Shown here: in pieces, positions 16,820 to 41,087 of the stretch | How the letters are laid out: each line of letters starts with the position of its first letter | Position numbering within the stretch: the stretch's first letter is position 1 | Assembly (NCBI GenBank): GCA_945787715.1 | Contig: CALZJE010000022.1 | Location: 1 to 42,808 of the forward strand | Reading direction: 5' to 3' | DNA from: an uncultured Ectothiorhodospiraceae bacterium | GTDB lineage: Bacteria > Pseudomonadota > Gammaproteobacteria > S012-40 | DNA: 42,808 nt | The notes under the pieces: model-generated | Databases searched by the model: none | What the model was told of the DNA's origin: nothing | What the model saw: only the letters and a program-made list of their open reading frames with translations | Translations under genes and position numbers: made by a program

Positions 16820-16884
16820 GTTTCCCCACCTTGTTTTCTATTCATTGCTAAGTAAAATATTTACAATTTTACTGGTACTACCTG

Positions 16885-17595: not shown

Positions 17596-17612
17596 TTTTC
17601 AGAATTCAAACC

Positions 17613-18407: not shown

Positions 18408-18436
18408 TTGAAAAATGCAAGTTACTTGCCGAATAA

Positions 18437-19642: not shown

Positions 19643-20204
19643 GGTTAACTCTCGTATCAGTGTCTTTCAAAGTATCTTTTACTAAACTGTTGGTAATTTT
19701 AGGTTTTTTTTCTTCTCTTTTAGGCAAATTATACACCTCAATAACCTTTCCATTTGCCATATCTACTGCTTGCCCCGGCTTCATAGTAACTTTTCGTCCC
19801 GGGATTGAAAACTGAATTAAGTCTCTTTTGATTTTTTTTGTATTAACTTTTATACCTTGCTTATCTAATTCTTCGTCCATTGTGTTCGAGTCATTAATCC
19901 ACACTACACTCTTACCGTCACTTCTTTTAATGAAACCGTTGAGCACAACTTTCCTCTCTTTTTTAATTGTTGTCGCATTTCCATTGTTATCATCCAACGC
20001 TGAACCGTTTATTTGGGGAGTGTTATTGATATAATTTTGCCGTGCCTTATCAAGTGCTTTGCGTTCTTTTATTGTTGTAAACAAGCGTTCCAAACTTTGC
20101 TTATTTTCATTTTCAGTAGCAGCAAAACCCTTTGCTGATCCACAAAGGATTATTAAAACGCCAAACATTAAGCAATATAGAACGTAGAGAAAACGCAACT
20201 TCAC
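19635..20204 (-). CDS. Exported PilP/MshK-like protein
   Basis: A 189-residue protein with a signal peptide or anchor (residues 4-28, ending AKGFA). The centre (VVLNGFIKRSDGKSVVWIN, about residues 83-101, and later GRKVTMKPGQAV) has the beta-strand pattern of PilP/MshK/GspC-type proteins. These link the inner-membrane pilus platform to the secretin in the periplasm. The rest is Lys/Asn/Asp-rich and probably unstructured. The ATG overlaps the stop of the PilO-like gene by 4 bases and the stop overlaps the large pilin start by 8 bases, so it is translationally coupled. The family call rests on gene order plus weak pattern. Confidence 0.6.
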   Translation of the reverse strand: MKLRFLYVLYCLMFGVLIILCGSAKGFAATENENKQSLERLFTTIKERKALDKARQNYINNTPQINGSALDDNNGNATTIKKERKVVLNGFIKRSDGKSVVWINDSNTMDEELDKQGIKVNTKKIKRDLIQFSIPGRKVTMKPGQAVDMANGKVIEVYNLPKREEKKPKITNSLVKDTLKDTDTRVNHD

Positions 20205-20818
20205 GTTTCAACCTCACTATGCCTATCATTTTTATAACGTATGGTAAACCACGTTAGACTACACTGGGCACTTATATTTGAAGCAACGCTTGTTTTGGAC
20301 TGCTGTTGTAATCGAATAAATTCACATTCGTTAATATGAAACAATCCATTTGCTTTTGTTTTCAATGTATCAATAATTTTAAGAAAATCACCTTCATGCA
20401 ACAACAACGTGCTTAAGTGCATTTGACTACTAAACACTTGATAATTTCCGGTAATCTCTATCTTAGGATCTTCGAATGGTTTCTGCTCATCAATCCGATA
20501 CTCAATTTTTTCTGTATGTAAATCTTTAACTGTTTCACTGAGTACTTCCAGCCAATTAAGTCTATCTTCTTCGCCAATCAATCCACTCTTCTTCATATCC
20601 ATAAATCGAGGTAATGATCGTTGAAGAATTAGCAAGTCTTCTAAAGTTTTCTGGCTTTTTTGTTTAATGCTGCTTAATTCAGTATTGTGCAACACATTTT
20701 GATCAAAAGATTTATGATATTGGAATGAGGAAAGTATACTCACCACTAAGCTAAAGAGGCTGGAAATAGCTACCCATTTAATCGTTTGCTTTAAAAATAT
20801 AACATCAATTTTTGGCAC
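20201..20818 (-). CDS. PilO/MshJ-like inner-membrane platform protein
   Basis: A single-pass protein: a hydrophobic segment near the N-terminus (TIKWVAISSLFSLVVSIL), then a periplasmic coiled coil (SSIKQKSQKTLEDLLILQ) and a mixed alpha/beta domain. This is the PilO/MshJ/GspM layout. I chose the GTG at 20818 (205 residues), because AGGAA lies about seven bases before it. A longer frame from ATG at 20863 would overlap the upstream gene by 59 bases with no better ribosome site. With the chosen start the overlap with the MshI-like gene is 14 bases. Assignment is by topology and gene order, not residue identity. Confidence 0.65.
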   Translation of the reverse strand: MPKIDVIFLKQTIKWVAISSLFSLVVSILSSFQYHKSFDQNVLHNTELSSIKQKSQKTLEDLLILQRSLPRFMDMKKSGLIGEEDRLNWLEVLSETVKDLHTEKIEYRIDEQKPFEDPKIEITGNYQVFSSQMHLSTLLLHEGDFLKIIDTLKTKANGLFHINECEFIRLQQQSKTSVASNISAQCSLTWFTIRYKNDRHSEVET

Positions 20819-22412
20819 TATTCGATTCCTGTTCGAATAAAGCCTCAATTTCAAAGGCTGCAATGAGTTTTTCGTTTGGTTTAGTACGAATATCTCCTAC
20901 CATTGATGCCTTGGAGTGTGCATTCAACGGCAATGTTATTACAGTGGCGTCTCGTATATCTGGAAGTGAACGTAAGGTCTCCACAAATTCATTGACCTGA
21001 ATTGTGGCTTTACGAAAGTTGCCATCAAAAGGATTGATTGTACCACCTATTTTTGTAACTTCTACAGTTTCTTGCCCCGTTGTTTCATTTGATGAGTCTA
21101 CGATTTCTGTTTCATCAGCAGGCTCGCCATGGTCGATAATTTCACCCACGTCATCTGCAGGTGTTAGGTATCTATCTTCAATTTTCCATTCAATTTTGTT
21201 GATGTTTAAATCAGTAAGACTATCTAATACTTTGCTTATTTGTATAAGTGCTGATTTAGGCGAAGTAGTACTAAGTTGTATTTTATCTAAAGTATCCAAA
21301 CCAGATTGGATATCATTCGCGGAGTGTGTAGTTGGAGGCAAAGCGGCTTTGAGCTTCTTAAATTCATATTGATAGATTTTCATATTAATCTGAGCAATTT
21401 CGCTATCCTGCTCAAGGATCATGGAATCTATATAAGTATGAATTGACCAGCTCAATGCGAAAGCAACAATCAATACACTCGCTGCTTTTAAAGGAAATAT
21501 CAACCTACGCATTTCATAAAATCGTGTTTGTTCTTTCGTTGCGTAATGGTTCGGTATGTTATTATTAGATACTAAATAAGTGATGAACTGAATGATATCT
21601 TTCGTTTCAGCTACATCTTTAATTTTTAGCGCATCTGCAATTTGTGATTTGGAGAGTAGGTGATAATTTAGTACTTCATCAGTTTTTACGATATTGCTAA
21701 ATATTTCTAAAATGGAATGTTCAAAGGTTACAAATACATCAAGAGTCGCTGTAGAGGGCAATAATCGAATTCGCTTTAAATACTGCAATGTTTTTTCGAT
21801 TTCTGAATTTGCGAGTTGTGCTATGTCTTCGTCGCTTTCGCTTAATGTTGAAGTTAATCGACTTATTTTTAAATTTGATTTATGAAAAAAAGATAGTCTC
21901 AAGCCACTTTTTTGAAATGTTACATATAATACGTAATCTTGTTTGGTTGTTACCGCATTAATCAATTTTGAGGATAATATTGGGAGTGAATAAATACCAC
22001 CTATTGAAACCTGTTTCGAAACTAGAATATCTACCCATGATGAGACAAGGTTTGGTTCAGTTAGTGCGGAGATGAAAACTATATCTTCCTTTTTACCAGA
22101 GCTTTCACGACCTCGGATCTCACCAAAGCGATAGATGGTATCTCTAAACTGTTTTTCTTTCTGACGTTGAAAAAATGATTTACGATCACGAAAGTTTACA
22201 TGAGGTAAATTTCCGTTGTAGTACTCCTCTTCTATAACGTCGACAATGATATAGGTGGTTGCGTCAGCATGATCAGAAAAAATATCAAATAAACGATTTC
22301 TGTCAGTTTCGCTATGTTCAAAATCTGATTGTTTAAGTAGTTCTCCAGCGTCCCACTCGTACAGAGTTAAAGAATCACAGGTGAGATATAAAACTCTTTT
22401 AAGCTTTTTCAT
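20805..22412 (-). CDS. MshI/PilM-like protein with PilN-like membrane part
   Basis: A 535-residue protein. Residues 1-290 read as an actin-like cytosolic domain of the PilM/GspL type (start RVLYLTCDSLTLYEWD, later YVLYVTFQKSGLRLSFF). A membrane segment at about 308-326 (AASVLIVAFALSWSIHTYI) is followed by a periplasmic coiled coil and a ferredoxin-like region (TINPFDGNFRKATIQVNEFVETLR, cited by its ends TINPF and FVETLR) like PilN. It therefore combines the roles that PilM and PilN split in T4aP systems. It would recruit MshE at the inner face. The start overlaps the stop of mshG by 4 bases. Confidence 0.7.
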   Translation of the reverse strand: MKKLKRVLYLTCDSLTLYEWDAGELLKQSDFEHSETDRNRLFDIFSDHADATTYIIVDVIEEEYYNGNLPHVNFRDRKSFFQRQKEKQFRDTIYRFGEIRGRESSGKKEDIVFISALTEPNLVSSWVDILVSKQVSIGGIYSLPILSSKLINAVTTKQDYVLYVTFQKSGLRLSFFHKSNLKISRLTSTLSESDEDIAQLANSEIEKTLQYLKRIRLLPSTATLDVFVTFEHSILEIFSNIVKTDEVLNYHLLSKSQIADALKIKDVAETKDIIQFITYLVSNNNIPNHYATKEQTRFYEMRRLIFPLKAASVLIVAFALSWSIHTYIDSMILEQDSEIAQINMKIYQYEFKKLKAALPPTTHSANDIQSGLDTLDKIQLSTTSPKSALIQISKVLDSLTDLNINKIEWKIEDRYLTPADDVGEIIDHGEPADETEIVDSSNETTGQETVEVTKIGGTINPFDGNFRKATIQVNEFVETLRSLPDIRDATVITLPLNAHSKASMVGDIRTKPNEKLIAAFEIEALFEQESNSAKN

Positions 22413-23614
22413 ATCGTCACCGTCGTTAAAGTATTATAGATAGGACCAAGGACAGACATAATTACCCATGCTAATATCGATCCCAATACAACAGTCATAA
22501 CTGGCCCCATCATGCTTTGCAGCTTGTCTAACGCTTCCTTAACATCTCGATTATAGAAATAACTAATATTAAGCAATGATGTTTCCAGTGCTCCTGTTGA
22601 CTCACCAACACTCAACATACGAAGAACTAACTTAGGAAACAAATTCGTTTTTTCAAAACTTTTACTAATTCCTTCACCCTCGGATATAGATTGTGCTGCT
22701 TCATTAATTGCTTTTGCAATCACACGATTGCCGACTATTCCTTCTCCAATTTTTAAACATTCCATTACAGTTATGCCAGACTCGTACAACAAAGCGAAGT
22801 TGTAGGTAAAACGAGACATTATAATTTTTTGCTGGATGGTACCAACGAGCCATAATCGGAGCTTAATTTTATCCACGATATGTTTCATTTTAGTACTCTG
22901 TTGATATACGATATAAAGCAACGCGGTTATTCCCACCAACGCTAAAAATATATAATGTCCAAAATTCCTGATTGTGTCGGAAACAAATATGAGCACTAAA
23001 GTATGCCATGGTAGCTCTTGGTTCATAGTTACTATAAATTTCACAAGTTCCGGCACTAAAAAAACCATTAACGCAATAACAACACTCAGTACTGCAATGG
23101 CAACAAAAAGCGGGTAAATCGCTGCTTTTTTTGCCTGAGATGTAATCTCATCCTCCCACTTTAAATTTTCAGAAATACTTTTGAGTATTTGGCTTAACTT
23201 TCCGCTGCTCTCTCCTGCACTAATCAAACTAATGAAAACAGGATTAAATGTGCCAGAATATTCTGCCATTGCTTCTGATAACTTCATACCGCCTTCAACT
23301 TTTTCAATTAGACCGGCGGTAACTGCGCGAAGCGTTCGGTTATCTATGTTGCTTTGCAGTTCATGTAGCCCCTCAAGAATCGGTACACCAGCGAGCATCT
23401 GCTGTTCAAGATAAAAAGTAAAAGTTATTAAATCTCGACGTGGAACTCGATGACTACCGAAAGATAAATTATAAGATTTAGCTTGCTTGATTGAAACGAG
23501 ATCCAATTCACGATGATGTAGCTGAACCTCAGCATCATTTTCATCATGTGCGTCAATTGTTCCATTTACGATCTTGCCAAATTCGTTGAGCGCTTTAAAT
23601 CGGTATATTGTCAT
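22409..23614 (-). CDS. mshG: MSHA-type pilus platform protein (PilC/GspF family)
   Basis: A 401-residue inner-membrane platform protein of normal length. Two homologous GspF domains are visible. The first has FTFYLEQQMLAGVPILEGL (about residues 65-83) and the second FTYNFALLYESGITVMECL (about 267-285). Each is followed by one or two hydrophobic segments, with a last pair near the C-terminus (PVMTVVLGSILAWVIMSVL). It anchors the assembly ATPase and moves pilins into the growing fibre. It starts 4 bases after the mshE stop and overlaps the next gene by 4 bases. Confidence 0.92.
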   Translation of the reverse strand: MTIYRFKALNEFGKIVNGTIDAHDENDAEVQLHHRELDLVSIKQAKSYNLSFGSHRVPRRDLITFTFYLEQQMLAGVPILEGLHELQSNIDNRTLRAVTAGLIEKVEGGMKLSEAMAEYSGTFNPVFISLISAGESSGKLSQILKSISENLKWEDEITSQAKKAAIYPLFVAIAVLSVVIALMVFLVPELVKFIVTMNQELPWHTLVLIFVSDTIRNFGHYIFLALVGITALLYIVYQQSTKMKHIVDKIKLRLWLVGTIQQKIIMSRFTYNFALLYESGITVMECLKIGEGIVGNRVIAKAINEAAQSISEGEGISKSFEKTNLFPKLVLRMLSVGESTGALETSLLNISYFYNRDVKEALDKLQSMMGPVMTVVLGSILAWVIMSVLGPIYNTLTTVTI

Positions 23615-23618
23615 AGTT

Positions 23619-25331
23619 TTAATCTAGGTTTTCAGTTAAATCTACAACACGGGATATTTCATCCAGAGTAGTAGTACCTTCTAACACGCGCTGGCAAGCA
23701 TCTTGTGCCAGGGGTATAAATCCTTTTGATATCGCAACTTTTTTGATTTCTTGTATCGTTGCATCACGGGCTATCAATTCATCAAGATCTGAGTCAAATC
23801 GAAATACTTCCATAAGTGCAATCCGGCCGTTATAACCCGTCATATCACATTTATCACAACTACTTGCTGTATAGATTTTTTGCGGTTGTTTATCAATTTC
23901 GGTAACGCCTAGTAACCGTAACTCAAGATCATCTGGAGTCTTAGGTTTTTTGCATGAACTGCAAAGCCTTCTTACCAAACGCTGCGCAGCGATGCCGGTA
24001 ATATTTCCTGCCATAATGCTAGGTTTAATACCAATATCCAACAATCTAGGTATGGAACCCAGTGCTGAGTTAGTGTGTAGCGTAGAAAAAACCTGGTGAC
24101 CAGTCATAGCAGCACGAAACGCCATCTCAGCCGTATCTTCATCGCGAATCTCCCCGACGAGGATAATGTCTGGATCTTGTCTCATCATGGATCTTATACC
24201 ATTGGCGAAATCAAGTTTTGCGGCCTCGTTAACCGAAGTCTGTCGAATCATGGGCATTGGATATTCAACAGGATCTTCTAGTGTCATGATATGAACTGAT
24301 TCGGTATTCAGATAATTAAGTAACGAGTATAGTGTGGTGGTTTTGCCGCTACCTGTCGGGCCAGTAACTAAAATAATACCCTCTGGACGGGCCATAATAA
24401 GTTTGAGAGTGGATAGAATATGTTCAGGTATTCCAGTCTTATCTAACGGTACAATACCTTTATCTCGATCCAATATCCGCAATACAAAATTTTCGCCAGA
24501 TGTCGTTGGATGGCAGGCGACACGAAAATCTACTTGCCTTCCAGAGAGTGTTAATGAAACTCGGCCATCCTGAGGTGCCCTAGTTTCAGCTATGTTCATA
24601 CCTGATATAACCTTCAAGCGAACTACCATGCCAGACCAATAATCTATATGAAGAATTCGAATTTGTCGTAACACGCCATCAATTCGATATCTCACCCGCA
24701 GAAAACGTGGCTCAGGTTCAAAGTGAATATCTGAAGCTCTTCTTTTAACAGCATCTGCCAATATGCCGTTAACTAATCGTACTAATGGTTGGCTAAATTC
24801 GTCTTGTCCATTGGTGACGGTCGTATGATCTATTTCGCCAGTTTCAAGTTCATTCAATATTCCATCAACAGATAACTCAAACTTGTAAAAGTTATCTATA
24901 GTCTCTTCGATTTGTGATTCTGTCGTCGCTAGTGGCTTAATCTCAATAGAGTCTTCCAGCGTTGCTTGAACTTTATCAACAGCGACAACATCAAAAATAT
25001 CCGCCATCGCAACAATAAGAGTATTCGTTGATTCTATAAAAGTAATCGGGATCATTTTATACCGTAGTGCTAGCGTCTTTGGTATCATTTTTATCGCTAC
25101 TTCATCGACCAACATTTTTGCCAGGTCAATAGTCTTCTGGCCAGAAGCTTCTCCTAAAGCATCACGTATGACTGCATCAGTGACAAACCCAAGTGACGTA
25201 AACAATTTACCTAAAGGCTCTTTAGTACGTTTTTGCTCAGTAAGTGCAATGCGTAGCTGATCAGGAGATATTAAACCCTCGTCAAGTAGTTGGTCTCCTA
25301 GACGCCGTGGACGCTTTGCTGCTTCACTCAT
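23619..25331 (-). CDS. mshE: MSHA pilus assembly ATPase MshE with c-di-GMP-binding N-domain
   Basis: A 570-residue extension ATPase (GspE/PilB family). The N-terminus carries the tandem MshEN layout. A perfect first 24-residue motif spans R10-Q33: RLGDQLL, then EGLIS, L26, L30 and Q33. A 5-residue spacer follows, then a looser second motif at 39-62 (PLGKLF, LGFV, L59). In Vibrio MshE this tandem binds cyclic-di-GMP. Walker A is GPTGSGKTT at 324-332, with Asp-box and Walker B (DPDIILVGEIRD) and His-box after it. A zinc site is formed by CSSC and CDKC near the C-terminus. The ATG overlaps the stop of the TPR gene by 4 bases. No PilT-like retraction ATPase is in the window. Confidence 0.94.
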   Translation of the reverse strand: MSEAAKRPRRLGDQLLDEGLISPDQLRIALTEQKRTKEPLGKLFTSLGFVTDAVIRDALGEASGQKTIDLAKMLVDEVAIKMIPKTLALRYKMIPITFIESTNTLIVAMADIFDVVAVDKVQATLEDSIEIKPLATTESQIEETIDNFYKFELSVDGILNELETGEIDHTTVTNGQDEFSQPLVRLVNGILADAVKRRASDIHFEPEPRFLRVRYRIDGVLRQIRILHIDYWSGMVVRLKVISGMNIAETRAPQDGRVSLTLSGRQVDFRVACHPTTSGENFVLRILDRDKGIVPLDKTGIPEHILSTLKLIMARPEGIILVTGPTGSGKTTTLYSLLNYLNTESVHIMTLEDPVEYPMPMIRQTSVNEAAKLDFANGIRSMMRQDPDIILVGEIRDEDTAEMAFRAAMTGHQVFSTLHTNSALGSIPRLLDIGIKPSIMAGNITGIAAQRLVRRLCSSCKKPKTPDDLELRLLGVTEIDKQPQKIYTASSCDKCDMTGYNGRIALMEVFRFDSDLDELIARDATIQEIKKVAISKGFIPLAQDACQRVLEGTTTLDEISRVVDLTENLD

Positions 25332-27397
25332 TTTTTGATCCCTGAGGAGTTTTGCAATGACAATAATCGATCAGTCACCACTTGTGGATCAAATAAGGAC
25401 CGTCCATCTTTCGATAATGCCAATGCTTTTTTATAATACTGCGCAGCTTGATTACTCTCCCCAAGCATATCCAAACTAACGGCCAGATTATATGCATAAT
25501 CTGCGCTTCCTTTATCAATATTGGATGCAATAAAATAGCTTGCCTCAGCATCTGCCCATCGTTGTTGAGTCACATAAACATTGCCTAAAGCAAAGTGCAA
25601 ATAAGCTGCGCCAGACTCTCGAGACAAGAGTGTTTTTAGTTCGCTTTCAGCGGCCAATGGATCCATTTTTCCGACAATATCAACTAGCCCAGCAAGTGCT
25701 ACACTGTCATGCTTATTTTTTCGTAACAAACGGCTGTAGTAATCTTGCGCACTATTTATATTGTTATTGCGAACTGAAATAGCAGCAAGGCCAAGTAATG
25801 CATCACGATTTTCCTCACTTTGTTGTAGTACTCTTTCATATTTTTCGCTTGCAGCATTTAATTTCCCGTCATTAAGGTCATTATATGCTTCAAGAAGTAA
25901 TTGATAGGTCTTATCCACAGTATTCGAACGTGATATCGTCACTGACTTCTTATGATTCACTGAATTTTTGTTATTACTGATTTTTTTTGCTATTGAGTTA
26001 GTTTTTACAATTTTCTTTTTTTGAATTCCACTCTCACTAACCAATGCTGAAACTACTGTATTTTTGTTGGAAGAAGATCCATTCTGTGTCGTGTTTTTTA
26101 GGGCTGATTTCTGTAGTAAGTTTTCACGCAAAGATTTTGCTGCTGAATTCACCTTAACGGGAACTTTCGGGGTTTTATGCACTTGTACTGGCAGTGCTTG
26201 GTGAATTAAATCACGTGCACTATTTGTTATCAGTTGTTTAGCGGAGCTTTCAACACTAGATAAATCATTATTCTCTGCTATCGAACTTTCATCACTCTGG
26301 CCATCACTAGAATTGTTTAATCCTGTTTCAAAGTCTTCGTTTAAAGATACGGGCTGGACTATTTCTGTCGAAAAACTTTGTAGCTGATCTTCTAAATATA
26401 TATAAGCTACGACCGCACCGATCACGATGACACTCATTATGCTAGCATTGACGATGGTACGTTTATTTTTAAATCTGTTGGTGGTTCTTGTCTTCGACAG
26501 ACTGCTAGTTGAAGCGGAAGAAATTTCAGCTGTAAATGGATCACCCTTAGCCTTGTTTCTTTTTTTATCATTTTCTTCTTTGTACTTTTCTTCTTTGTAC
26601 TTTTCTTCTTTGTGCTTTTCTTCTTGTTGCTTTTCGATATCGACAGCTTCTGATTCTTCCTTATTCGTATTCTCGATATCTTTATTAGCACTAGAATACA
26701 ATCGATCACGAGCTTTTATTTCTTCTAATTTTTCTTTCATGCCCGGTGTTAGTTCATTATCATTTGCAAGGTTGTTATCATCTACAACCGGGGAGAATTC
26801 TAAAATAGACTCAATCCCTGAAACATCATCACTGGGTGTTACAGTTAGATCCTGTTGTGTTTCTCCAACATCTTGATTTCGTTTTTGCTCTTCTTGATCC
26901 GGGTATGGATAATCCATCGTGTTAGGTTCATTGGAAGAATTCGGTAAAGAATCATTAGAAAGTGATAAATTTTCAAACTGATCAGTATCAGTATTTTTTT
27001 CTTCAATATCTCGGGATTGAGCTTCAATAGGTGAAAATTCATCATTAACAGATTCAACATCATCGTCAAGTAGCTGAAGTCCTTCCGTTTTAATAATTTC
27101 TGATTTGATAGTTTCATTACTACCATCGAGTATTTTTTCTGAATCAATATCATCATGATTATCGTCCAGCATTTTTTCTAATTCTAGCTCTAATTCATCT
27201 TCGTTGACTTCCAATTCTGATGAAACATCCAATACATTTTTTTCAATTTCAACTGAAGATGATCCATCTTGTAAGTCAGCTCGCTCCTCATTGTTTGCAA
27301 GAGAAATTACAGAGTCTTGATTCGCAGAATCTTGATCAGATAACGCTTTTTTCTTCGCTAGTTCTGCTTTTTTAAGAGCTTCCATTAAGAGACTCAT
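25328..27397 (-). CDS. MshN-like membrane protein with acidic N-domain and TPR repeats
   Basis: A 689-residue protein. It starts with a short helix MSLLMEALKKAELAKKK seen in MshN-like proteins. Residues about 25-290 are acidic, low-complexity and probably disordered, ending in a Lys/Glu tract KHKEEKYKEEKYKEE encoded by a 15-base tandem repeat. One membrane segment lies near 320-338 (IVNASIMSVIVIGAVVAYIY). The periplasmic part has a Lys/Ser/Asn-rich linker, then TPR repeats from about 500 to the end (YNDLNDGKLNAASEKYERVL; LHFALGNVYVTQQRWADAEA). MshN/PilF-like TPR proteins help build the secretin or platform. Lies between mshL and mshE. Confidence 0.75.
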   Translation of the reverse strand: MSLLMEALKKAELAKKKALSDQDSANQDSVISLANNEERADLQDGSSSVEIEKNVLDVSSELEVNEDELELELEKMLDDNHDDIDSEKILDGSNETIKSEIIKTEGLQLLDDDVESVNDEFSPIEAQSRDIEEKNTDTDQFENLSLSNDSLPNSSNEPNTMDYPYPDQEEQKRNQDVGETQQDLTVTPSDDVSGIESILEFSPVVDDNNLANDNELTPGMKEKLEEIKARDRLYSSANKDIENTNKEESEAVDIEKQQEEKHKEEKYKEEKYKEENDKKRNKAKGDPFTAEISSASTSSLSKTRTTNRFKNKRTIVNASIMSVIVIGAVVAYIYLEDQLQSFSTEIVQPVSLNEDFETGLNNSSDGQSDESSIAENNDLSSVESSAKQLITNSARDLIHQALPVQVHKTPKVPVKVNSAAKSLRENLLQKSALKNTTQNGSSSNKNTVVSALVSESGIQKKKIVKTNSIAKKISNNKNSVNHKKSVTISRSNTVDKTYQLLLEAYNDLNDGKLNAASEKYERVLQQSEENRDALLGLAAISVRNNNINSAQDYYSRLLRKNKHDSVALAGLVDIVGKMDPLAAESELKTLLSRESGAAYLHFALGNVYVTQQRWADAEASYFIASNIDKGSADYAYNLAVSLDMLGESNQAAQYYKKALALSKDGRSLFDPQVVTDRLLSLQNSSGIKK
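26571..26630. repeat. 15-base tandem repeat inside the MshN-like gene
   Basis: Four in-frame copies of TTTTCTTCTTTGTAC (plus-strand reading). The first two are identical, the third differs at one base and the fourth at a few. It encodes the K(Y/H)KEE run in the cytosolic linker. Being a multiple of three, it can change copy number by slippage without shifting the frame. Confidence 0.85.
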
Positions 27398-27413
27398 GAT
27401 CCACTCCTATTGG

Positions 27414-29069
27414 TCATAATGCTGCCCTATCAGCGTTCATATTCTCTTTATTTGATCCATCAGTATCTAATGCTTTAGGTAGATATTGACGGTAACGACG
27501 TAGCTCCTGACTGTTATCCGCATTGTGCACAACCACTGGGCGTAGAAAGATAACAAGTTCGGTTTTAGTGAAATCATCGTCCTGATATCTAAATAAGTTA
27601 CCGATGAAAGGTAAGGTAGACAAAAATGGTACTCCACTCTTATTTTTGTTCTCTTTATTTTGCATGAGGCCACCAAGCACTACGGTTTGGCCATCTCGCA
27701 CCTGTAAAAGTGATTCAATTTCTCGGACCTGAATTTCAGGAATTAGATTTTCATAAGCTTGACTTGAGTTGTTAAAAATTGATTGTTGCAGCTGAGGGCC
27801 AGGATCACGAACATACCGAGTTATTCGTGTTATTGTTGGCCGTATATTCATGGTTACTGTTCCATTTTTATTGATTTGAGGAGTTACACTCATCGTCATA
27901 CCAACAGGTACAGTTCTAATTTTCGAGTTAACTGTACTCGTTAACTTCTTTGTTTCAGCATCTTCCTCTACCTCTACACTCACTTCGAAATAGACTTTTT
28001 CATCAACTACTTTAAGCAGTGCGGTCTGGTTATTAATGGCGATAATTTTTGGACTGGATAATACTTGCACATCGCCAAAAGCTTCGAGCATACTTACACC
28101 CATAGAAAAATTGAAGTTAGTGGTCTCTTTAACTAAACTCATGAGAAAATTAGGTGCAGTAGAGAGGTTGCTACCTATCGTATTGGATCCAGCGGTTACG
28201 GTGGTTGCTCCTCGATTAGCAATTCCCTGCCAATCAACACCTGCTTGATAGCGATCACTCAACTCAACTTCTACAATCGTCGCTTCTATAAGCACTTGTC
28301 GCTGAGAGTTTGCCATGACTTGATCTAAAAACGACTGCAATTCACTATGTTGTTGCTGAGAAGCCTTAACCGTTAAAATTCCACTTAATGGATTTGCAAT
28401 GATTTTGTTACTGGAACCACTCTTCTTATCACTACTCTTCTCATCACTGCCCTCCTCTCCAAGAATTTTACTCACGTTTCTTATTAATGTTTTCCAAAAG
28501 TCGTTGTTGGTTTCACTGGTTACTGCAGTTTTTGACGTATTTCCTACACCCGCCGCGCCACTAACACCCTGTCCAGTAGTTGCAACCTCCGTTGCTACTT
28601 TCACGCTACTACTACTATTACGCGACATGTTTACGTAATTGATTTTATAACTACGAAAAAAGGGTAAATCAGGTGAGATAACTAAATTTTCATTTTCAAC
28701 AACATATCGAATAGGAACTTGCTCGGAAATTCGATTAAGGATTTGTATTAAGGTTTGTTTTATTGCATTAATGGTGACCTCACCTGTTATGCCAGGATGA
28801 ATATCAACATTCATTTTTGCATCACGCGCTAGTGCAAATAACAACTCTTTTACTGGTACACCATTGACAACCACCGTATACACTTCCTGCTTTTTTTCAG
28901 GTTTTGGTGGCGGCACAAAAGGAGCTTGGCCAACGGGTAAAGGGACCTTATTAGATTTTGGTTTCTCGACTTTTGTTGTTAAATGCCCTTCAGACTGTTT
29001 GGGTGGTTTTGTAGCGGCACACCCAAAAAGAAAGACAGCAAGAAATAATATAACAAGTAACTGTTTCAT
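27414..29069 (-). CDS. mshL: MSHA pilus secretin MshL (outer-membrane lipoprotein)
   Basis: A 551-residue secretin, first gene of the operon. The signal peptide ends at lipobox LFG then Cys17, so the subunit is lipidated. After a Pro/Lys-rich linker, a secretin N-domain (VPVKELLFALARDAKMNVDI, about residues 73-92) is followed by a Ser/Gly-rich insert near 150-220. The NolW-like segment IANPLSGILTVKASQQQH comes next. The C-terminal secretin gate domain shows VLIEATIVEVELSDRYQAGV, VLSSPKIIAINNQTALLKV and VVLGGLMQNKENKNKSGVP. It forms the outer-membrane pore for the fibre. The insert resembles the MshL Ser-rich region. The start has only a weak ribosome site (AGAG). Confidence 0.93.
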   Translation of the reverse strand: MKQLLVILFLAVFLFGCAATKPPKQSEGHLTTKVEKPKSNKVPLPVGQAPFVPPPKPEKKQEVYTVVVNGVPVKELLFALARDAKMNVDIHPGITGEVTINAIKQTLIQILNRISEQVPIRYVVENENLVISPDLPFFRSYKINYVNMSRNSSSSVKVATEVATTGQGVSGAAGVGNTSKTAVTSETNNDFWKTLIRNVSKILGEEGSDEKSSDKKSGSSNKIIANPLSGILTVKASQQQHSELQSFLDQVMANSQRQVLIEATIVEVELSDRYQAGVDWQGIANRGATTVTAGSNTIGSNLSTAPNFLMSLVKETTNFNFSMGVSMLEAFGDVQVLSSPKIIAINNQTALLKVVDEKVYFEVSVEVEEDAETKKLTSTVNSKIRTVPVGMTMSVTPQINKNGTVTMNIRPTITRITRYVRDPGPQLQQSIFNNSSQAYENLIPEIQVREIESLLQVRDGQTVVLGGLMQNKENKNKSGVPFLSTLPFIGNLFRYQDDDFTKTELVIFLRPVVVHNADNSQELRRYRQYLPKALDTDGSNKENMNADRAAL

Positions 29070-31822: not shown

Positions 31823-32597
31823 TATTTTTGGTACTGGAGGAATTAACAAGTTTTCTGAATATGCGAGCTGATAACCTTTGATATAGTAACGTATTATTTT
31901 GATTATCCTCATAGTGCGAAATTTGCTTTTTTTATCGCTTTATCATAGTTTACAACAATTTTTTAACGATTTATCTGTTCAATTAAATTTTAGTTAAAAG
32001 CATAGTACCAGAACATACCATTAAGTCTGTCGACACATTGCTTTTTCGGATGTGTATAGTTTTAATTCACCTTGAATGTGACCTTAAATGTAACAAAGGT
32101 TCGCTGTGTGTCCTCAGCTTTCTTTTTAAGGGCGCACAAGAATTGGTGTTGCTTTAAACACATCGTCAAACACTTTTTTAGCAATTTTAATATTGTTAAC
32201 GAGAATCTCTTCCTGTTTTTTTAGTCCAGCTCGTCTTACCTGCCAAGAAAGCTCACTGAGTATTGATTTTCTTGTCACATTTTTTCAGACACTATTGCTC
32301 TCTGATCCGGTTTTATCTCTATGCCTGCCCTGAAATTTATCTTGGTGAAAAAAACAACATAACCAGCAGCCCCATTAAGGCGTACATTATCTCATTTAGT
32401 CCCAAGCAGCTGTGCTCAATGGTGAGCTACTAAAGACATTTAAACAGTGGTATCCTGATCCCAAGATGCAAGAATATGGTGAACACAAAACAACGCAGCT
32501 CAAAGCAGCGGCCTGACTTATTTACATTTTGTTCCACACTTTTTTGTGCACGCCATTCATGAAACCAACAAGAGTTTAATTGTATAAAGGACTAGAT
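31823..32597. other. Gene-poor stretch with degraded reading frames
   Basis: About 775 bases with no intact gene. On the minus strand 32062-32278 holds two frames that read as a decayed small gene, listed separately. On the plus strand 32408-32515 reads AVLNGELLKTFKQWYPD and on to LKAAA with a stop, and an overlapping frame upstream (from about 32285) has protein-like composition. These look like remains of inserted or decayed genes that I cannot name. Confidence 0.35.
32062..32278 (-). pseudogene. Decayed small gene, frameshifted
   Basis: From a GTG at 32278 the minus strand reads 50 codons (TRKSILSELSWQVRRAGLKK, later IKIAKKVFDDVFKATPILVR) to a stop at 32126. One frame over, the reading continues ALKKKAEDTQRTFVTFKVTF to a stop at 32062. 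The composition looks genuine and a one-base indel near 32130 would fuse them. No ribosome site is seen and the family is not recognised. Confidence 0.3.
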
Positions 32598-34088
32598 ATG
32601 AAAACGAAGAATAATCCACCTGTCAAAACAACCGGCTTATGGGTTACAAAAATGTTTATCTGTTGTCTCTGTTGGTATTGTTTCAATGCCGTCGCCGAAG
32701 ATGAATTTCAGGCTTGGCAACAACAAACGTTAAACGACTTTTCTGAGTACAAATCCAAACAAGATAAAGAATTTGCTACTTTTCTAAAAATGACCTGGGT
32801 GGGAATAAATACACTTAAAGGAAAGCCACTCTATGAAAAAAAGAAAATAATTGAACCACCCAAAGCACCACCTGAAAAAAAGAAAACGCGCGTCGAAAAG
32901 CCTATCATTGTCCAGATCCCACCAAAGAAAATCGAACAAAAAAAACAAGTTTCAATACCAAAACCTGTTTTTACACCAGTCAAAGGAAATATGGTTAGAA
33001 TATACTTTTTTGGTAACAAGCTTTCATTCCCTTACGACAAGGCAATGAAAAAAAGAATACGAGGAAAGATCAATAAAGATAAAATTAGCACTCAGTGGTC
33101 GTTACTGGCGAAGTCAGATTATGAACCGCTAATGAAAAGCCTGAAAACCCATCAACAACAACTCAATTTGAATGACTGGGCTTATGCAATACTAGTTAAT
33201 GAACTCGCCAATGAGTTATACCCCAATCAAAAGAATGAACAGGCCTTTTTCTCCTGGTTTGTTCTCATCAAGTCCGGATATAAATCACGTATTGCTTATA
33301 AAGACCGTGACATTATTCTTATGTTGGCTACAAAACAACAGGTATTCGCGGCACAATCACTTAATTTTAAAGACACAAAGTATTACGCACTAGATTTCTC
33401 TGGTAATAAACCACCAAAGCTAGCTAAGGTATATACCTACGATGGTGATTACCCGGGTAGTAATCAATTTTTTGATATGCAACTGCAAAAAGCAATCGGC
33501 ACTGGGGAAAACGAAACTAAACGAACCCTGGATTTTGTCTACTCACAAAAAAAATACACGCTCGATACGGTAAGCAACAAATACTTGGTCGACTTTATGA
33601 AAACCTACCCGCAAGTACATTGGAATACCTATTTTAATTCAAACCTTGATACCCTTCCACGGCAACAAGTAGCAGACCAACTTCGACCACATCTAACAGG
33701 ATTATCCGAGGAAGAGGCAGTTAATTTCCTTTTGCGTTTTGTACAAACGTCATTAAAGTATGAGACTGATAACAAACAATTTGGCTATGAAAACCCCCTA
33801 TTCCCAGAAGAATCTTTGTTTTATCCAGCTTCGGATTGCGAAGATAGATCTTTTCTATTTTCCTGGCTAGTACAAGATCTACTCGGCCTGGATGTTGTTG
33901 GTTTACATTATCCAGGACACATAGCGACAGCGGTAAGATTAAACATGAAAGTCAGTGGTGATTCTGTACATTACAAGGGAAAAAGCTATTTGGTAGCAGA
34001 TCCGACCTATATTAACGCCAACATTGGCAATGCTATGCCTAAGTTTAAAAATGCTAAGGTGGAGATTTTAGAGATAAGTAAGATTTAG
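32598..34088 (+). CDS. Exported transglutaminase-like cysteine peptidase-fold protein
   Basis: A 496-residue protein from the ATG at 32598, which has AGGA at 32588-32591 six bases before it. A TTG at 32580 would add six residues with no ribosome site. A signal peptide (about residues 16-34, ending NAVA) is followed by a Lys/Pro-rich linker near 80-125 and a long middle domain. The C-terminal transglutaminase-like core has Cys414 in DCEDRS, His441 in YPGHIATAV and Asp468 in VADPTY. The Cys-His-Asp order and spacing fit an active papain-like triad. It is probably a periplasmic or envelope enzyme, either a peptidase or a crosslinker; the target is unknown. It is monocistronic, with a terminator-like hairpin after it. 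Confidence 0.75.
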   Translation: MKTKNNPPVKTTGLWVTKMFICCLCWYCFNAVAEDEFQAWQQQTLNDFSEYKSKQDKEFATFLKMTWVGINTLKGKPLYEKKKIIEPPKAPPEKKKTRVEKPIIVQIPPKKIEQKKQVSIPKPVFTPVKGNMVRIYFFGNKLSFPYDKAMKKRIRGKINKDKISTQWSLLAKSDYEPLMKSLKTHQQQLNLNDWAYAILVNELANELYPNQKNEQAFFSWFVLIKSGYKSRIAYKDRDIILMLATKQQVFAAQSLNFKDTKYYALDFSGNKPPKLAKVYTYDGDYPGSNQFFDMQLQKAIGTGENETKRTLDFVYSQKKYTLDTVSNKYLVDFMKTYPQVHWNTYFNSNLDTLPRQQVADQLRPHLTGLSEEEAVNFLLRFVQTSLKYETDNKQFGYENPLFPEESLFYPASDCEDRSFLFSWLVQDLLGLDVVGLHYPGHIATAVRLNMKVSGDSVHYKGKSYLVADPTYINANIGNAMPKFKNAKVEILEISKI

Positions 34089-35065: not shown

Positions 35066-35775
35066 ATTGTATTCCCATCGTTGTATATTTATAACCGCGA
35101 ATTATACATTAAGCCAGTGGGGAATATCCAACGTATCAGAAACCAGTCTTATGTTCGTTATAATTGGAATTTCAGCATTTTTTGGTCCTCCACGGTGATC
35201 CATACTTTACGTCGCGAAGCCCCCAGGTCGCACGCTTGGCGCCAAGTCTATCTTCGTGCGCTCTCAACTATGAATATGTGGATACGATGACAGCCCGAAT
35301 TATTATATTTTAATTTAAGCCATAAGAGATACGACCCCTTTTAATAGGACAAAACAAACCGTACTAATGACAACCTATATATCGGTCACTATTGATTAAC
35401 TTTTGTTTCGTTCTTTAATTATGTTGTCTCAAATGATAAATAACGATATTTCTATTTTCTCTCTCACACCAAATAAACAATCCCCTGTGAAAATTTACGT
35501 TTTAATCTCTCGTTTATCTGGTTATAGTAAATTAAAGCCTGAGTATCAATCGCCTATAAGACACTAAATAACATTCACTTCTTCATCTCATAATTAATCT
35601 AACGGAGTCCTGATTAGGTCAGAGAACGCTATGAGGGCAAGAACAAAACGATCGAAAAAATGGAGTTTACACTGTGTAATTAAGTATTTTTAACACAACA
35701 ATCATACAGTAAATGACTTAATCGGGTTTCCTAGTTCATAAGCTAAATATTTAACTACATGGAGGTAGATCATAT
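35066..35775. other. Gene-poor stretch with a GC-rich hairpin element
   Basis: About 710 bases without a supported gene. The segment 35190-35265 is clearly more GC-rich than its surroundings and carries a cruciform-like repeat, listed separately. The right half is AT-rich and should hold the promoter of the PilZ fusion gene. Confidence 0.4.
35229..35260. repeat. GC-rich nested inverted repeat
   Basis: A 12-base perfect palindrome CTTGGCGCCAAG (35235-35246) sits inside an outer arm pair CGCACG (35229-35234) and CGTGCG (35255-35260). It could fold as a cruciform or a structured RNA element. It stands out by GC content. The nature is unknown. Confidence 0.45.
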
Positions 35776-37362
35776 ATGTCGCAGTCAATTGAAAATTATA
35801 GTAATAGACGAAAGGATATGAGAATCACTAACGATGAGTTTTATAAAGCCATCGCGTTTGATAAACCCATTAAGGTCAATGATATATCTGAAAACGGAAT
35901 TCGATTTACGCTACCTTCAGAAGAAAACAATCCCAGATGTGGAGATTATTTCGATGTTGAGATATCTACTCCGGAGAATAAATACCGCATGGAAGCAAAA
36001 ATCATGTGGCAAACATATCGAGAGGAAAAAATAATCTCAGCAGGTGCTTTAATTCTCAGACGGAGAGACCACAAAAAATTTATAGAAGCATTTAGCGCTC
36101 GGCAAAATAAAATTTTACCAACTGAAGCTAAGGTAGAAAACAATACGACAAATTCTGATTGGAAATCAAAACAAACAATCAACCAACGGTTAATTAAAGA
36201 AAGCAAAGGTATTGATGACTGGATCAGTCGAAACCGATATTTGAGGACGCTAAAAACAGCCTCAGATGCCATTATTCAGATAGGAAACGAAGAATTAATC
36301 AATCTCGGCAGTAATAACTATCTTGGCCTGACTCAACACCCAAAAGTAAAAGAGGCCGCTATCGAAGCTGTAAGCAAATATGGCGCGGGAGCCGGCAGTG
36401 TTCGCATGCTTGCGGGTACAATGGAGCTGCATAAAGAACTGGAAGAAAAATTAGCACAATTCAAGGGCGCTGAAGCTGCTGTATTATTGCCGTCTGGTTA
36501 TTCTGCTAATTTCTCCGTGCTTTCTACACTACTAAAAAAAGGAGATATTGTATTCAATGATGAATTGAATCATGCAAGTATTGTTGATGGATGCAGAGCG
36601 TCGGCAGCAAAACTCCGTTTTTTTCGACATGCAAACTTAGATGGCCTTGAAAAGCGACTTCAACAATATCCGAACGAGGCGCCAAAATTAGTTATTACCG
36701 ACGGCGTATTTAGCATGGACGGAGATATTGCCGACCTTCCTGGTATTATAAATCTAGCTCAGAAATATAATGCGATGGTTATGGTTGATGATGCGCATGC
36801 AACTGGGGTAATTGGAAAAACAGGCCATGGCAGCGCCGAATATTGCGGTGTCAGTGGCATCCCGGATATAACCACATGCACATTGAGTAAAGCAATTGGT
36901 GTGATAGGGGGTGCCGTATGTGGCTCTCAGACTTTAATTAAAACCATTATCCATCGCTCAAGATCCTTTCTATTTACATCAGCACTTCCTCCCGCTGTCA
37001 CTGCCAGTGCGCTAGCATCACTACACGTTATTGAAACAGAACCTGAGTGGATAGAAAAACTGCACACTAATCGGCTATACCTTTATGATCGTTTAAAACA
37101 ACTTGGCTTTGACGTGTGGGAAACTCCAACAGCGATAATGCCAGTGATTGTTGGTGACGAAAATCTTACATATGAAGTTTGTGCAAGGTTGGGAGAACTT
37201 GGTGTTTTTGTAAACGCTGTTTCTCCACCAGCGGTCCCGAAGGATCTCTGCCGATTACGAGTGAGCGTAATGGCAACTCATACCCAAACACATCTCGACA
37301 AAGCAGTAGATGCTTTTTCGAAGGTAGGGCACGAGTTAGGACTCTTGGATAACTCAATCTAA
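35776..37362 (+). CDS. PilZ domain fused to alpha-oxoamine synthase (PLP enzyme)
   Basis: A 528-residue fusion. Residues 1-110 form a PilZ domain with both c-di-GMP signatures: R12-K-D-M-R16 (RxxxR) and D36-I-S38-E-N-G41 (D/NxSxxG). Residues about 132-525 are a full alpha-oxoamine synthase like BioF/Kbl/CqsA, with GSNNYLGLTQHP, GAGSVRMLAGT, His266 in NHAS (stacks on the cofactor), D338-D-A-H341, and the PLP lysine Lys372 in TLSKAIG. These enzymes condense an amino acid with an acyl-CoA and release CO2. No bio operon or tdh is beside it, so the product is open: a signal ketone, a lipid base or an ordinary metabolite. The inference is that c-di-GMP controls activity. GGAGG lies ten bases upstream and a terminator follows. 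Confidence 0.88.
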   Translation: MSQSIENYSNRRKDMRITNDEFYKAIAFDKPIKVNDISENGIRFTLPSEENNPRCGDYFDVEISTPENKYRMEAKIMWQTYREEKIISAGALILRRRDHKKFIEAFSARQNKILPTEAKVENNTTNSDWKSKQTINQRLIKESKGIDDWISRNRYLRTLKTASDAIIQIGNEELINLGSNNYLGLTQHPKVKEAAIEAVSKYGAGAGSVRMLAGTMELHKELEEKLAQFKGAEAAVLLPSGYSANFSVLSTLLKKGDIVFNDELNHASIVDGCRASAAKLRFFRHANLDGLEKRLQQYPNEAPKLVITDGVFSMDGDIADLPGIINLAQKYNAMVMVDDAHATGVIGKTGHGSAEYCGVSGIPDITTCTLSKAIGVIGGAVCGSQTLIKTIIHRSRSFLFTSALPPAVTASALASLHVIETEPEWIEKLHTNRLYLYDRLKQLGFDVWETPTAIMPVIVGDENLTYEVCARLGELGVFVNAVSPPAVPKDLCRLRVSVMATHTQTHLDKAVDAFSKVGHELGLLDNSI

Positions 37363-37370
37363 CAAAGTAA

Positions 37371-37406
37371 AACACCTGGAGTTGGCTTCATTACTCCAGG
37401 TGTTTC
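37371..37406 (+). terminator. Terminator of the PilZ-oxoamine synthase gene
   Basis: A 12-base stem AACACCTGGAGT (37371-37382) and ACTCCAGGTGTT (37393-37404) with a 10-base loop and a short T-run. It lies 8 bases past the stop. Confidence 0.85.
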
Positions 37407-37824: not shown

Positions 37825-39252
37825 ATGGAACAATACTATGAAATACCAATTATGAATAAAATTCGTATGTTTATTTTACTCTTTGTAATAATTTCAACTG
37901 CTTGTACGAATAATTCTAATCAGTCTAAAAATGATTTTCCGGAAATCACTGACGACACGTCTGAACAAACTCCGCCAGAAGAGACTCAGGAAAATCTCTC
38001 TAATGACACAGCTGGACAAGTCAGCATAGCGCCTGTAGCCAGCGCTGGAGACGACATTGTTACAATAGAGGGGCAGTCAGTCGTTTTAGCGGGTAGCAGC
38101 ACTGATTCAGACGGTAGCATTACTAGTTACGCATGGCGACAAATTGTGGGAACGGATGTTAGCCATAGTGATTCTGCCATTAACGCCCCCCAGTTCATCG
38201 CGCCATCAATAAGTGAAACACTCACATTTGAACTCACAGTCACCGACAACGAAGCCTTAACCCACAGCGATACCGTGAATGTCATTGTCAATTTAAACCA
38301 GCCACCTGTCGCAATTGCAGGTGATGACTTGAATGTTCAAGAAGCCACAATAGTGACATTATCCGGAAGCGGAACAGATGGTGATGGCTCAATAGCTTCA
38401 TATCAGTGGCAACAAACTGCTGGCACAAGTATCACGTTTAGTGATGCTAGCATCCCGAACCCGCAATTCACAGCGCCATCCGTGAACGAAACATTGTCTT
38501 TCAAACTCACAGTGACAGATGATTTTGGTGCTACGCAGTTCGATACCGTTGATGTACAGGTTAGTTGTCTCACTGGCAGTAAAGGAACACAGTGCTCGAT
38601 ACTTGATTACGCTAATTCTCCTGACACTTTTCGCGTGCAAGTGGATAAAGGAACCGAAACTCGCACTTTTAATCTGAAAAGATACTCCCCCACTGATAAT
38701 CTGTTAGTCAAAGTAGTCGATACCGACACATCGGTTTCTACTCATGAAGTATCCTCCCCTTCGGCTCAATATATGGGATGGGTTGAAGAAGAAAGTGCTT
38801 CCCTTGTTGCTGCCAGCATTTTACCAAATGGATCGCTGCGTTATTTTGTCTCCAGTGGGGACGGCTCGGCTGACTGGGAATTTGTTCCAGATGAAGAAAC
38901 GGAACCTGCCGCAACGCATATTACTTATCAACTTCAGAAATCCCCTGCTATCGTATTGTCACCTTCGCCTTATTCAGGCGCCAGTTTCTATACACCCCAA
39001 CGCGGTGGCCTGAACCGTGACGGCACTGTGTATAAATCTCATCTGGATTATGTCATTACCAAGGAATATGTTGACGCCATAACCAGTGACATTGACACGA
39101 TCATCCGCAAAGTTGAAACCACTGCCGCACAAATGAATATGATTTATTTACGTGACTTATTAATGGAACAAAAATTAATCAAATTCTCGTGCGCAAAGAT
39201 GCTTCACCCGATAGATATACAGCTCGCACACAATTTGAAACTTATGGCATGA
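37825..39252 (+). CDS. Metalloprotease lipoprotein, 5' part of a frameshifted gene (PKD domains)
   Basis: The first 475 codons of a long gene. Starting at Met9 (37849) gives the best signal peptide, MNKIRMFILLFVIISTAC, with lipobox STAC; the earlier ATG at 37825 adds eight residues. Neither start has a good ribosome site. After an acidic linker, two PKD-like domains of about 90 residues are seen, each with the pattern AGDD, L(A/S)GS, D(S/G)DGSI.SY.W and LTVTD. A propeptide-like region follows. The correct frame runs to about 39170 (MNMIYLRDLLMEQK). The last 25 codons here are a shifted reading. The protease core continues in the other frame from 39175. Confidence 0.8.
   Translation: MEQYYEIPIMNKIRMFILLFVIISTACTNNSNQSKNDFPEITDDTSEQTPPEETQENLSNDTAGQVSIAPVASAGDDIVTIEGQSVVLAGSSTDSDGSITSYAWRQIVGTDVSHSDSAINAPQFIAPSISETLTFELTVTDNEALTHSDTVNVIVNLNQPPVAIAGDDLNVQEATIVTLSGSGTDGDGSIASYQWQQTAGTSITFSDASIPNPQFTAPSVNETLSFKLTVTDDFGATQFDTVDVQVSCLTGSKGTQCSILDYANSPDTFRVQVDKGTETRTFNLKRYSPTDNLLVKVVDTDTSVSTHEVSSPSAQYMGWVEEESASLVAASILPNGSLRYFVSSGDGSADWEFVPDEETEPAATHITYQLQKSPAIVLSPSPYSGASFYTPQRGGLNRDGTVYKSHLDYVITKEYVDAITSDIDTIIRKVETTAAQMNMIYLRDLLMEQKLIKFSCAKMLHPIDIQLAHNLKLMA
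39170..39174 (+). other. Frameshift site in the metalloprotease gene
   Basis: A run of five A in CAAAAATT. One more A would join the two frames without loss, giving RDLLMEQKINQILVRKD across the join. The next frame has a stop just upstream (TGA near 39153), so the switch must occur between about 39156 and 39252. Confidence 0.7.
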
Positions 39253-41087
39253 ACACGACTGCGAATAATGTATATAACGTAACCGGTGGAGGCGGCGGTG
39301 CCGCAGCCGTTTGCCAGTTTGGTGGCGATCTGGTTACCGGCGCCGAACTAACTTACAGTCAAGCCTGGACGGGCATCATCGGTGACGGTACCTTTTTTGG
39401 TTATACACGGCATGAGTTAGGTCACTCATTTGGATCTGATCATTTTCCTGGCGACTCGCCTGAAGGATCTACCATCATGTCAGGTAATTCCCGGTCAAAA
39501 TTTTCTGGTGACGAAGTCTTGAGTCTCGAATCGTGCTTTGCACGAGTAGATTTAGAAAACTTCAAGTCAAGCAAACCCGCTACTGAAATGAATGACTACG
39601 AAATACCACCTATTGCCCGATTAGATAAAGTACTCGAGCTGGATGCTGATGGATCTGCAAACATCGATATTTTACTCAATGACTATGATGCGAATGGCGA
39701 TGATGTCGTTATTAAAGATTTCGACGCGCAAAGTACACTGGGAGGCACCATCACTTTCGTGCCTGCAGAAAATAGCAGTTCGCGAGACAAATTAAAATAT
39801 CTTGCTGGTTCAGCCGTCGCCCAGCCAGACACCTGCGGCGATCTATGCAGCTCGACTGACTTACTACTCTGGCTCGATGCCAGTGACAAAACCACCATTA
39901 TTGATACAGACGGTAAGACTGGTGATGACTTAAGCCATTTAGCGGCGGTTCAAAGCTGGAAAGATAAAAGCTCACATAACAACGATGCAACCGTTTATGC
40001 AGCGACAAGTCACCCTGAACTACACCTGACGGGTGAAAAAACGATTAGTAGGCAATCTGTCGTTCGCTTGGAAAGTGATTTAATGGAAATACGTACTTTG
40101 GATTTGCGTGAAGCAACGCATCCGGAAATCACCTCGATTGCAGTGGTTCGCTACGACGACGGCACTCCGGATAATCTTCCAACACTTTGGGCGTCTAAAT
40201 ACAATGGCTTTAATAATCGCCGACATGAGGCAATTGCCGGCACGACTGTGCAAACTCTCTTTTTTGATGCAAATGAAAAATCCGAATGGAAAAACATGTT
40301 GCCAAGAACGACAGCAGCTATTGCCTATGACCCCGCCGAAACAGGAATCGCTTTAGGTGCAGGACTTTACGCGTGGGACAATTATGCCGGCAGTTATAAA
40401 GCAACACTAACAGTAGCTGAATTGCTCATTTTTAATCGAAAACTCACAACGTCGGAACGGCAACACGTTGAATCTTATTTATCAAAAAAATGGTCAATAA
40501 CAATTAAAGACAAGTTTAATTATGTCATTACCGACATAACCGGTAGAACCAGCCAGGGCGTGGTTTACACACCGCCGCATTACGAAACAAAACCGGACTT
40601 AAGTGCATTTGATGGAAAAAGTGTTTATTTGAGAAACCGTAAAAACTGCGCCGAGGGAGATGCACTTTGTGACTGGCACTTATCCTGGAAGGGAATACCA
40701 GGTGAAGCGACCCTCATCACCTCGGCCAATACCGCTGACCTCGTTCCCTGGAAATTAACAATGGTGGAAGGAACAACGAATCAATTTTATATTGCCAACA
40801 CATGGGGTTGCCCGGTCGATTCCCAATGCAATCATACATTGCAATTTAATGAGCTCGGTCAATTGAATATTGTAGACAGCAATGAAGTCATGCCCTTTGA
40901 AATTTCCCTGGTGCCTGGAACTGACGCCCCAGGTATTACGACAGAGTATGCCATACGCAGCAAATATCAATGCGCGAGCGGCCATCTACGCTGCAACTCA
41001 TCCATTGGTTTTAACTATGACGAGCGAGTTCAACTAGATATCGATTTTAATGCCCCTGTTCCCTGGTCAATTGAAGTGTTGCCATAA
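39189..41087 (+). CDS. Metalloprotease lipoprotein, 3' part (metzincin core and C-terminal domains)
   Basis: The continuation of the frameshifted gene, 632 codons from an internal GTG that is probably not a true start. It holds the complete zinc site HELGHSFGSDH (39411-39443; HExxHxxxxxH) and a Met-turn STIMSGN (Met at 39477), as in reprolysin-like M12 peptidases. A cadherin-like segment (DILLNDYDANGDDVVI) follows, then a LamG/concanavalin-like domain (DLLLWLDASDKTTI through LTVAELLIFNRKLTTSERQ, cited in part). The C-terminus has two similar cysteine-bearing units (RNRKNCAEGDALCDWHL; SKYQCASGHLRCNSSIG), like a beta-trefoil. The whole gene would encode an about 1,085-residue surface or secreted protease. 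It looks more GC-rich than neighbours, hinting at transfer. Confidence 0.8.
   Translation: MRKDASPDRYTARTQFETYGMNTTANNVYNVTGGGGGAAAVCQFGGDLVTGAELTYSQAWTGIIGDGTFFGYTRHELGHSFGSDHFPGDSPEGSTIMSGNSRSKFSGDEVLSLESCFARVDLENFKSSKPATEMNDYEIPPIARLDKVLELDADGSANIDILLNDYDANGDDVVIKDFDAQSTLGGTITFVPAENSSSRDKLKYLAGSAVAQPDTCGDLCSSTDLLLWLDASDKTTIIDTDGKTGDDLSHLAAVQSWKDKSSHNNDATVYAATSHPELHLTGEKTISRQSVVRLESDLMEIRTLDLREATHPEITSIAVVRYDDGTPDNLPTLWASKYNGFNNRRHEAIAGTTVQTLFFDANEKSEWKNMLPRTTAAIAYDPAETGIALGAGLYAWDNYAGSYKATLTVAELLIFNRKLTTSERQHVESYLSKKWSITIKDKFNYVITDITGRTSQGVVYTPPHYETKPDLSAFDGKSVYLRNRKNCAEGDALCDWHLSWKGIPGEATLITSANTADLVPWKLTMVEGTTNQFYIANTWGCPVDSQCNHTLQFNELGQLNIVDSNEVMPFEISLVPGTDAPGITTEYAIRSKYQCASGHLRCNSSIGFNYDERVQLDIDFNAPVPWSIEVLP

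Follow-up and report, generated by a model that had tools for sequence, protein, structure and literature searches.

The window analysed here is a stretch of 42,808 nucleotides from an uncultured Ectothiorhodospiraceae bacterium. Within it, a single uninterrupted frame starting with ATG encodes a protein of 528 amino acids in which an N-terminal PilZ domain is joined to an alpha-oxoamine synthase (AOS) (Table 1), confirming the first-pass annotation, according to which one intact frame spans a PilZ domain and a pyridoxal phosphate (PLP) enzyme. The gene has its own ribosome-binding site, as had been proposed, and stands alone, because it is flanked by a divergent thioredoxin/TPR gene on one side and, 460 bp downstream, by a separate PKD gene. 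The claim that it has its own terminator stood in part: a 13-bp hairpin follows the stop codon, but this hairpin was not listed by the terminator consensus scan because of its 10-nt loop and weak T tract. No Rfam match or riboswitch was found around the gene, the neighbouring thioredoxin/TPR and PKD/peptidase genes provided neither an operon partner nor a hint of the substrate, and PADLOC did not call the gene as a defence gene. The PKD-domain/reprolysin-like metallopeptidase gene (window 37825-41087) appears to be split: its two ORFs, 37825-39252 and 39189-41087, overlap but are read in different frames, which suggests a frameshifted gene or an assembly error. Upstream, positions 32580-34088 encode an apparently secreted protein of 502 amino acids without a confident Pfam match.

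Table 1. Features of the PilZ-AOS locus, in positions of the window.
Feature	Position	Strand	Basis
Shine-Dalgarno-like GGAGGT	35761..35766	+	9 nt 5' of ATG; read directly
PilZ-AOS fusion gene	35776..37362	+	open ATG frame, 528 aa; codon usage of both halves like that of neighbouring genes
PilZ domain, ~residues 10-112	35803..36111	+	Pfam PF07238; motif shuffles; Foldseek; hhalign
R12xxxR16 motif of PilZ domain	35809-35823	+	
D36xSxxG41 motif of PilZ domain	35881-35898	+	
Low-confidence, probably flexible linker, ~residues 113-134	36112..36177	+	pLDDT 30-40 over 111-130; start-codon scan
AOS region, residues 126-528, including N-terminal helices 126-152	36151..37359	+	PF00155; TIGR01825 449.8 bits; AlphaFold
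His266 codon, stacks on PLP	36571..36573	+	invariant in alignments
Asp338-Asp-Ala-His341, PLP binding	36787..36798	+	D338 and H341 invariant in alignments
Lys372 codon, Schiff base	36889..36891	+	invariant in alignments
13-bp hairpin 3' of stop codon, probable terminator	37371..37406	+	RNA fold, dG -20.5 kcal/mol

The PilZ domain had been described as carrying both cyclic-di-GMP (c-di-GMP) signatures, and this description held: R12 and R16 of the RxxxR motif and D36, S38, and G41 of the DxSxxG motif are all present. The Pfam PilZ model matched residues 15-84 with an E-value of 1.6e-4, a borderline match of 22.3 bits against a gathering score of 22.5 in hmmscan, and the domain reached 25.8 bits, above the PF07238 cut-off, in the genome scan. 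The two motifs recurred together at PilZ spacing in 57 of 20,000 shuffles (0.3%) when the first 125 residues were randomized, and in 293 of 20,000 for the whole protein. A single-sequence AlphaFold model of residues 1-125 was poor (pLDDT 47), with strands in residues 32-92 and a helix at 96-107; the top ten PDB matches that Foldseek returned for this poor model were all PilZ domains or PilZ-containing chains (E 0.02-0.08), including BcsA, Alg44, MotI, and PP4397. When compared by hhalign with the other PilZ proteins of the host, residues 31-79 aligned with a probability of 89% and an E-value of 2e-6. Some proteins with a PilZ fold do not bind c-di-GMP; judging from its motifs, the PilZ domain of the fusion probably does.

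Judged from alignments and the structural model, residues 126-528 are a complete AOS-class enzyme with an intact catalytic set. Aminotran_1_2 (PF00155) covers residues 173-514 with an E-value of 4.7e-64. The four residues from which a complete PLP enzyme had been proposed, His266, Asp338, His341, and Lys372, are all intact, as is R495, and in alignments these five correspond to the PLP and carboxylate positions that are invariant throughout the AOS family. The N-terminal helices at residues 126-152 are also present in ordinary AOS enzymes. In the AlphaFold model, pLDDT values are mostly above 85 from residue 161 onwards, and this fold type I model matches the crystal structures of KBL, SPT, and ThAOS with Z-scores of about 50.

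The curated cut-off was reached for none of the NCBIfam AOS models. The top-ranked model, TIGR01825, describes a BioF/Kbl-related group with the same catalytic set but without PilZ, and gave 449.8 bits against a cut-off of 535.4. Scores were likewise below the cut-offs for BioF (TIGR00858, 414.4 against 426.45), for Kbl (TIGR01822, 358 against 493; PRK06939, 426 against 460), and for ALAS (TIGR01821, 304 against 339). A maximum-likelihood tree of 77 rows keeps the fusion AOS apart from the Kbl, BioF, ALAS, SPT, and CqsA groups; its long branch (0.98) arises between SPT together with polyketide synthase (PKS)-linked enzymes and the BioF/Kbl crown, and a tree of 32 rows agrees with this placement. 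The tree comparison proposed in the first-pass annotation thus sets the enzyme apart from the named groups, but in AU tests a placement with BioF (p 0.083) or Kbl (p 0.17) was not rejected, and neither was a grouping with a PKS-linked enzyme (p 0.22) or with a Nitrospinota BioF (p 0.51), so that specificity cannot be read from the tree. An identity as BioF was set aside on the score, the position outside the BioF clade, and the lack of biotin genes nearby; an identity as Kbl on the scores and on the presence of the host Kbl elsewhere; and an identity as ALAS on the score and on V209 and M211, which replace the succinyl-CoA-specific Thr/Ser and Asn.

Three enzymes without PilZ come closest to the AOS part. 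The nearest sequence, with the highest identity found (48%), is a Nitrospinota BioF encoded beside bioB, which also has the MATH(T/S) motif; it passes the BioF cut-off with 502 bits, whereas the fusion does not. The best structural-sequence match (346 bits) is the Thermus AOS (PDB 7poa), which has the same catalytic set, but the fusion is not grouped with Thermus in the tree. The third, 45% identical and one of the top-ranking AOS relatives from the phylum genomes, is an AOS off-loading domain that ends a polyketide synthase and differs from the fusion in being joined to PKS modules and a carrier protein. Among the groups compared, the acyl-pocket segment VRMLAGT, beginning at V209, is common only to the fusion and this PKS-linked enzyme, a weak hint at a long or carrier-bound acyl group as substrate.

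The host genome is a 4.4 Mb draft in 227 contigs, and its 40 GGDEF and 13 PilZ matches indicate that c-di-GMP is in use in this organism. It encodes a separate Kbl (672 bits against the cut-off of 493), whose gene adjoins a tdh-like dehydrogenase gene, and a separate BioF, assigned by clade, whose gene adjoins a BioH-like hydrolase gene, both neighbours being named by reading the sequence. As the host has its own kbl-tdh and bioF-bioH pairs, a housekeeping role is unnecessary for the fusion, which by these assignments is a third, non-housekeeping AOS. The other long PilZ frame of the host (contig C37, 1438-3033, 536 amino acids) is not an AOS; its product resembles methyl-accepting chemoreceptors and ends in a PilZ domain containing both motifs.

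The AOS enzyme is almost certainly produced solely as a PilZ fusion, because the start-codon scan found neither ATG nor GTG in frame between codons 77 and 211, and the only TTG, at codon 156, lacks a Shine-Dalgarno sequence; a start there would also remove the N-terminal helix.

To learn about the distribution of this architecture, searches with the whole protein were made against the genomes of 95 relatives, 369 members of the class, 398 members of the phylum, and 48 genomes around the nearest PKS match, and none contained a fused relative; the PilZ-linker part alone also found none in the 369 class genomes. These samples were drawn from a collection that covers about half of the GTDB species. 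A peptide-pattern scan of 84,980 species genomes, with a pattern that finds close relatives only, showed no fusion among the best 80 loci. Nearly all matches begin at the AOS core, and those starting slightly earlier (residues 78-139) gave no PilZ motif match. Six long open frames were read as fused candidates, and none has PilZ; the upstream extension of one of them (L008) looks like a frame artefact, and another is the polyketide synthase described above. Viral contigs gave no match. Phage and plasmid searches gave 19 and about 695 records, all below 60% identity; the matches listed are AOS genes aligned over the AOS part, and no PilZ was seen among them. The gene was found in none of the 12 other genomes of the family in the collection searched. 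One genome of the family has a thioredoxin gene 83% identical to the neighbouring one, but no AOS gene next to it. The first-pass annotation had called for a search for the same domain order and regarded a tree position inside ordinary Kbl/BioF, with PilZ lost or degenerate in all relatives, as evidence against its reading; half of this applies, in that no relative found carries the domain. Without a fused ortholog, conservation of either motif cannot be judged, which limits the functional argument.

As far as we searched, the pairing of PilZ with AOS is unreported. No paper on a PilZ-AOS enzyme was found, nor one on a c-di-GMP-controlled enzyme of the BioF/Kbl/SPT/CqsA class, in line with the earlier statement that none had been characterized; subscription journals and InterPro-type architecture lists lay outside this search. 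Two apparent prior reports (PMC12204192 and PMC10791800) were chance text matches.

Known PilZ targets are mostly polysaccharide synthases, flagellar or pilus parts, chemotaxis adaptors, and chaperones. In YcgR, the RxxxR motif is located in the linker, which is moved on ligand binding. The same holds for the cellulose synthase BcsA, in which RxxxR is part of the linker that joins PilZ to the remainder of the protein, and ligand binding moves this linker (PMC12564702). Fusion of PilZ to enzymes with an effect on catalysis is an established theme, with BcsA as an example (PMC10333796). Like the fusion, BcsA combines in one chain an enzyme and a PilZ domain with RxxxR and DxSxxG, and it is activated by c-di-GMP; it differs in being a membrane glycosyltransferase whose PilZ domain follows the catalytic domain, whereas the fusion is a soluble PLP enzyme that begins with PilZ and has RxxxR, residues 12-16 of 528, at the extreme N-terminus. 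The enzyme part follows the C-terminal PilZ helix via about 20 low-confidence residues. Since RxxxR is not in the inter-domain linker, the hinge mechanism of BcsA and YcgR is not simply transferable, and the signal would have to pass where the surface of ligand-bound PilZ touches the AOS dimer, or through recruitment of a partner. The PilZ-DnaK proteins CsdK1 and CsdK2 of Myxococcus xanthus (PMC10313047) are closer in layout, with an N-terminal PilZ domain before a complete soluble housekeeping-type fold and a lineage-restricted occurrence; they are chaperones and not PLP enzymes, and CsdK1 lacks half of the binding motif (PMC10313047), both halves of which are intact in the fusion.

We therefore favour, with moderate confidence, a reading of the protein as a lineage-specific, c-di-GMP-responsive AOS in which catalysis is under direct control. 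The soluble PLP enzyme would condense an amino acid with an acyl thioester, with loss of CO2, to give an alpha-aminoketone. The N-terminal PilZ domain probably binds c-di-GMP via R11/R12/R16 and D36-S38-G41, as its motifs suggest, and binding would alter the packing of PilZ against the AOS dimer; the most likely site of this change is close to helices 126-152 at the AOS N-terminus. The equivalent helices in related dimers lie near the active site of the partner. The altered packing might raise or lower AOS activity, the direction of the effect, the contact surface, and the substrates being conjectural. Domain matches, motifs, PilZ fold matches, the catalytic set, and the AOS fold point in this direction, and the lack of an alternative start, uniform codon usage, the c-di-GMP network of the host, and its separate Kbl and BioF are consistent with it; the borderline Pfam PilZ score, the lack of a fused ortholog, the position of RxxxR away from the junction, and the lack of an operon partner count against it. 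A further-reaching version is a more tentative proposal: a PLP-dependent enzyme that condenses acyl-CoA or acyl-ACP with an amino acid, belongs to a lineage apart from every named AOS family, and is switched directly by c-di-GMP. Such an enzyme would couple the decision for motile or sessile life to the synthesis of an aminoketone, lipid, or signal. If direct control is correct, it would extend direct c-di-GMP regulation to amino-acid/acyl condensation chemistry through a receptor built into a small-molecule PLP enzyme. The fusion may thus be an unrecognized route from lifestyle signalling to the control of a biosynthetic enzyme.

Alternatively, the PilZ domain might bind c-di-GMP as a docking or localization module, without an allosteric effect on a constitutively active AOS, and direct it to a partner, which might for example be an acyl carrier protein, a site on the membrane, or a further c-di-GMP protein. 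The distance of RxxxR from the junction and the probably flexible linker between the domains would fit such a role, and several PilZ proteins act through protein-protein interaction. We consider docking to such targets unlikely, as no partner gene lies nearby and the simplest reading of a PilZ domain fused directly to a soluble enzyme is that it controls this enzyme.

It is also rather doubtful that the PilZ domain has lost c-di-GMP binding, or that the fusion is a recent and near-neutral event, leaving an ordinary broad-specificity BioF/Kbl-type AOS with a passenger domain. The occurrence in a single genome, the borderline Pfam score, and the long branch, for which BioF or Kbl placement was not rejected, would agree with a passenger; both motifs are intact, however, a combination rare by chance, neither the frame nor the codon usage looks impaired, and there is no decay among the catalytic residues.

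The product had been left open in the first-pass annotation, with sphingoid bases and signals of the CAI-1/LAI-1 type among the candidates. A synthase gated by c-di-GMP that makes signals of the CqsA/LqsA type, or one that makes sphingoid bases, would belong to the same superfamily as the fusion AOS, and it would be natural for c-di-GMP to be linked to quorum signalling. We nevertheless regard both as very improbable. A CAI-1/LAI-1-type product is unlikely because the CqsA/LqsA model NF005526 gave only 198.8 bits against a cut-off of 428 and the branch separating the fusion AOS from CqsA/LqsA measures 2.1 (77-row tree) or 2.23 (32-row tree) substitutions per site; in the host genome, no CqsA-type match exceeded the threshold. 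Sphingoid bases are not favoured because the scores for the SPT models lie far under their cut-offs (NF047599, 326 of 500; NF047600, 394 of 640; NF047603, 284 of 670) and the AU test rejected grouping with Bacteroidetes (CFB)-type SPT (p 0.001).

That two unrelated genes were joined into a chimera during assembly, as the fragmented draft, the lack of an ortholog confirming the junction, and the rise in GC between the PilZ part (36%) and the AOS part (44%) might suggest, is hardly credible, given a single in-frame junction without a stop, an AOS N-terminal helix that is intact past the linker, and codon adaptation (CAI 0.70 in the PilZ part, 0.77 in the linker, 0.69 in the AOS part, similar to neighbouring genes) and GC3 (0.32 and 0.34) that are uniform, so that both halves look native to the genome. 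GC differs but GC3 does not, and composition therefore gives no clear sign of a chimera; by frame and codon usage, the PilZ-AOS join is real.

Elsewhere in the window, the minus strand carries an MSHA-type pilus/type II secretion-like cluster (15295-29069) that includes a secretin. MshEN is a known c-di-GMP-binding module, and the ATPase of this cluster (23619-25331) contains an MshEN domain.
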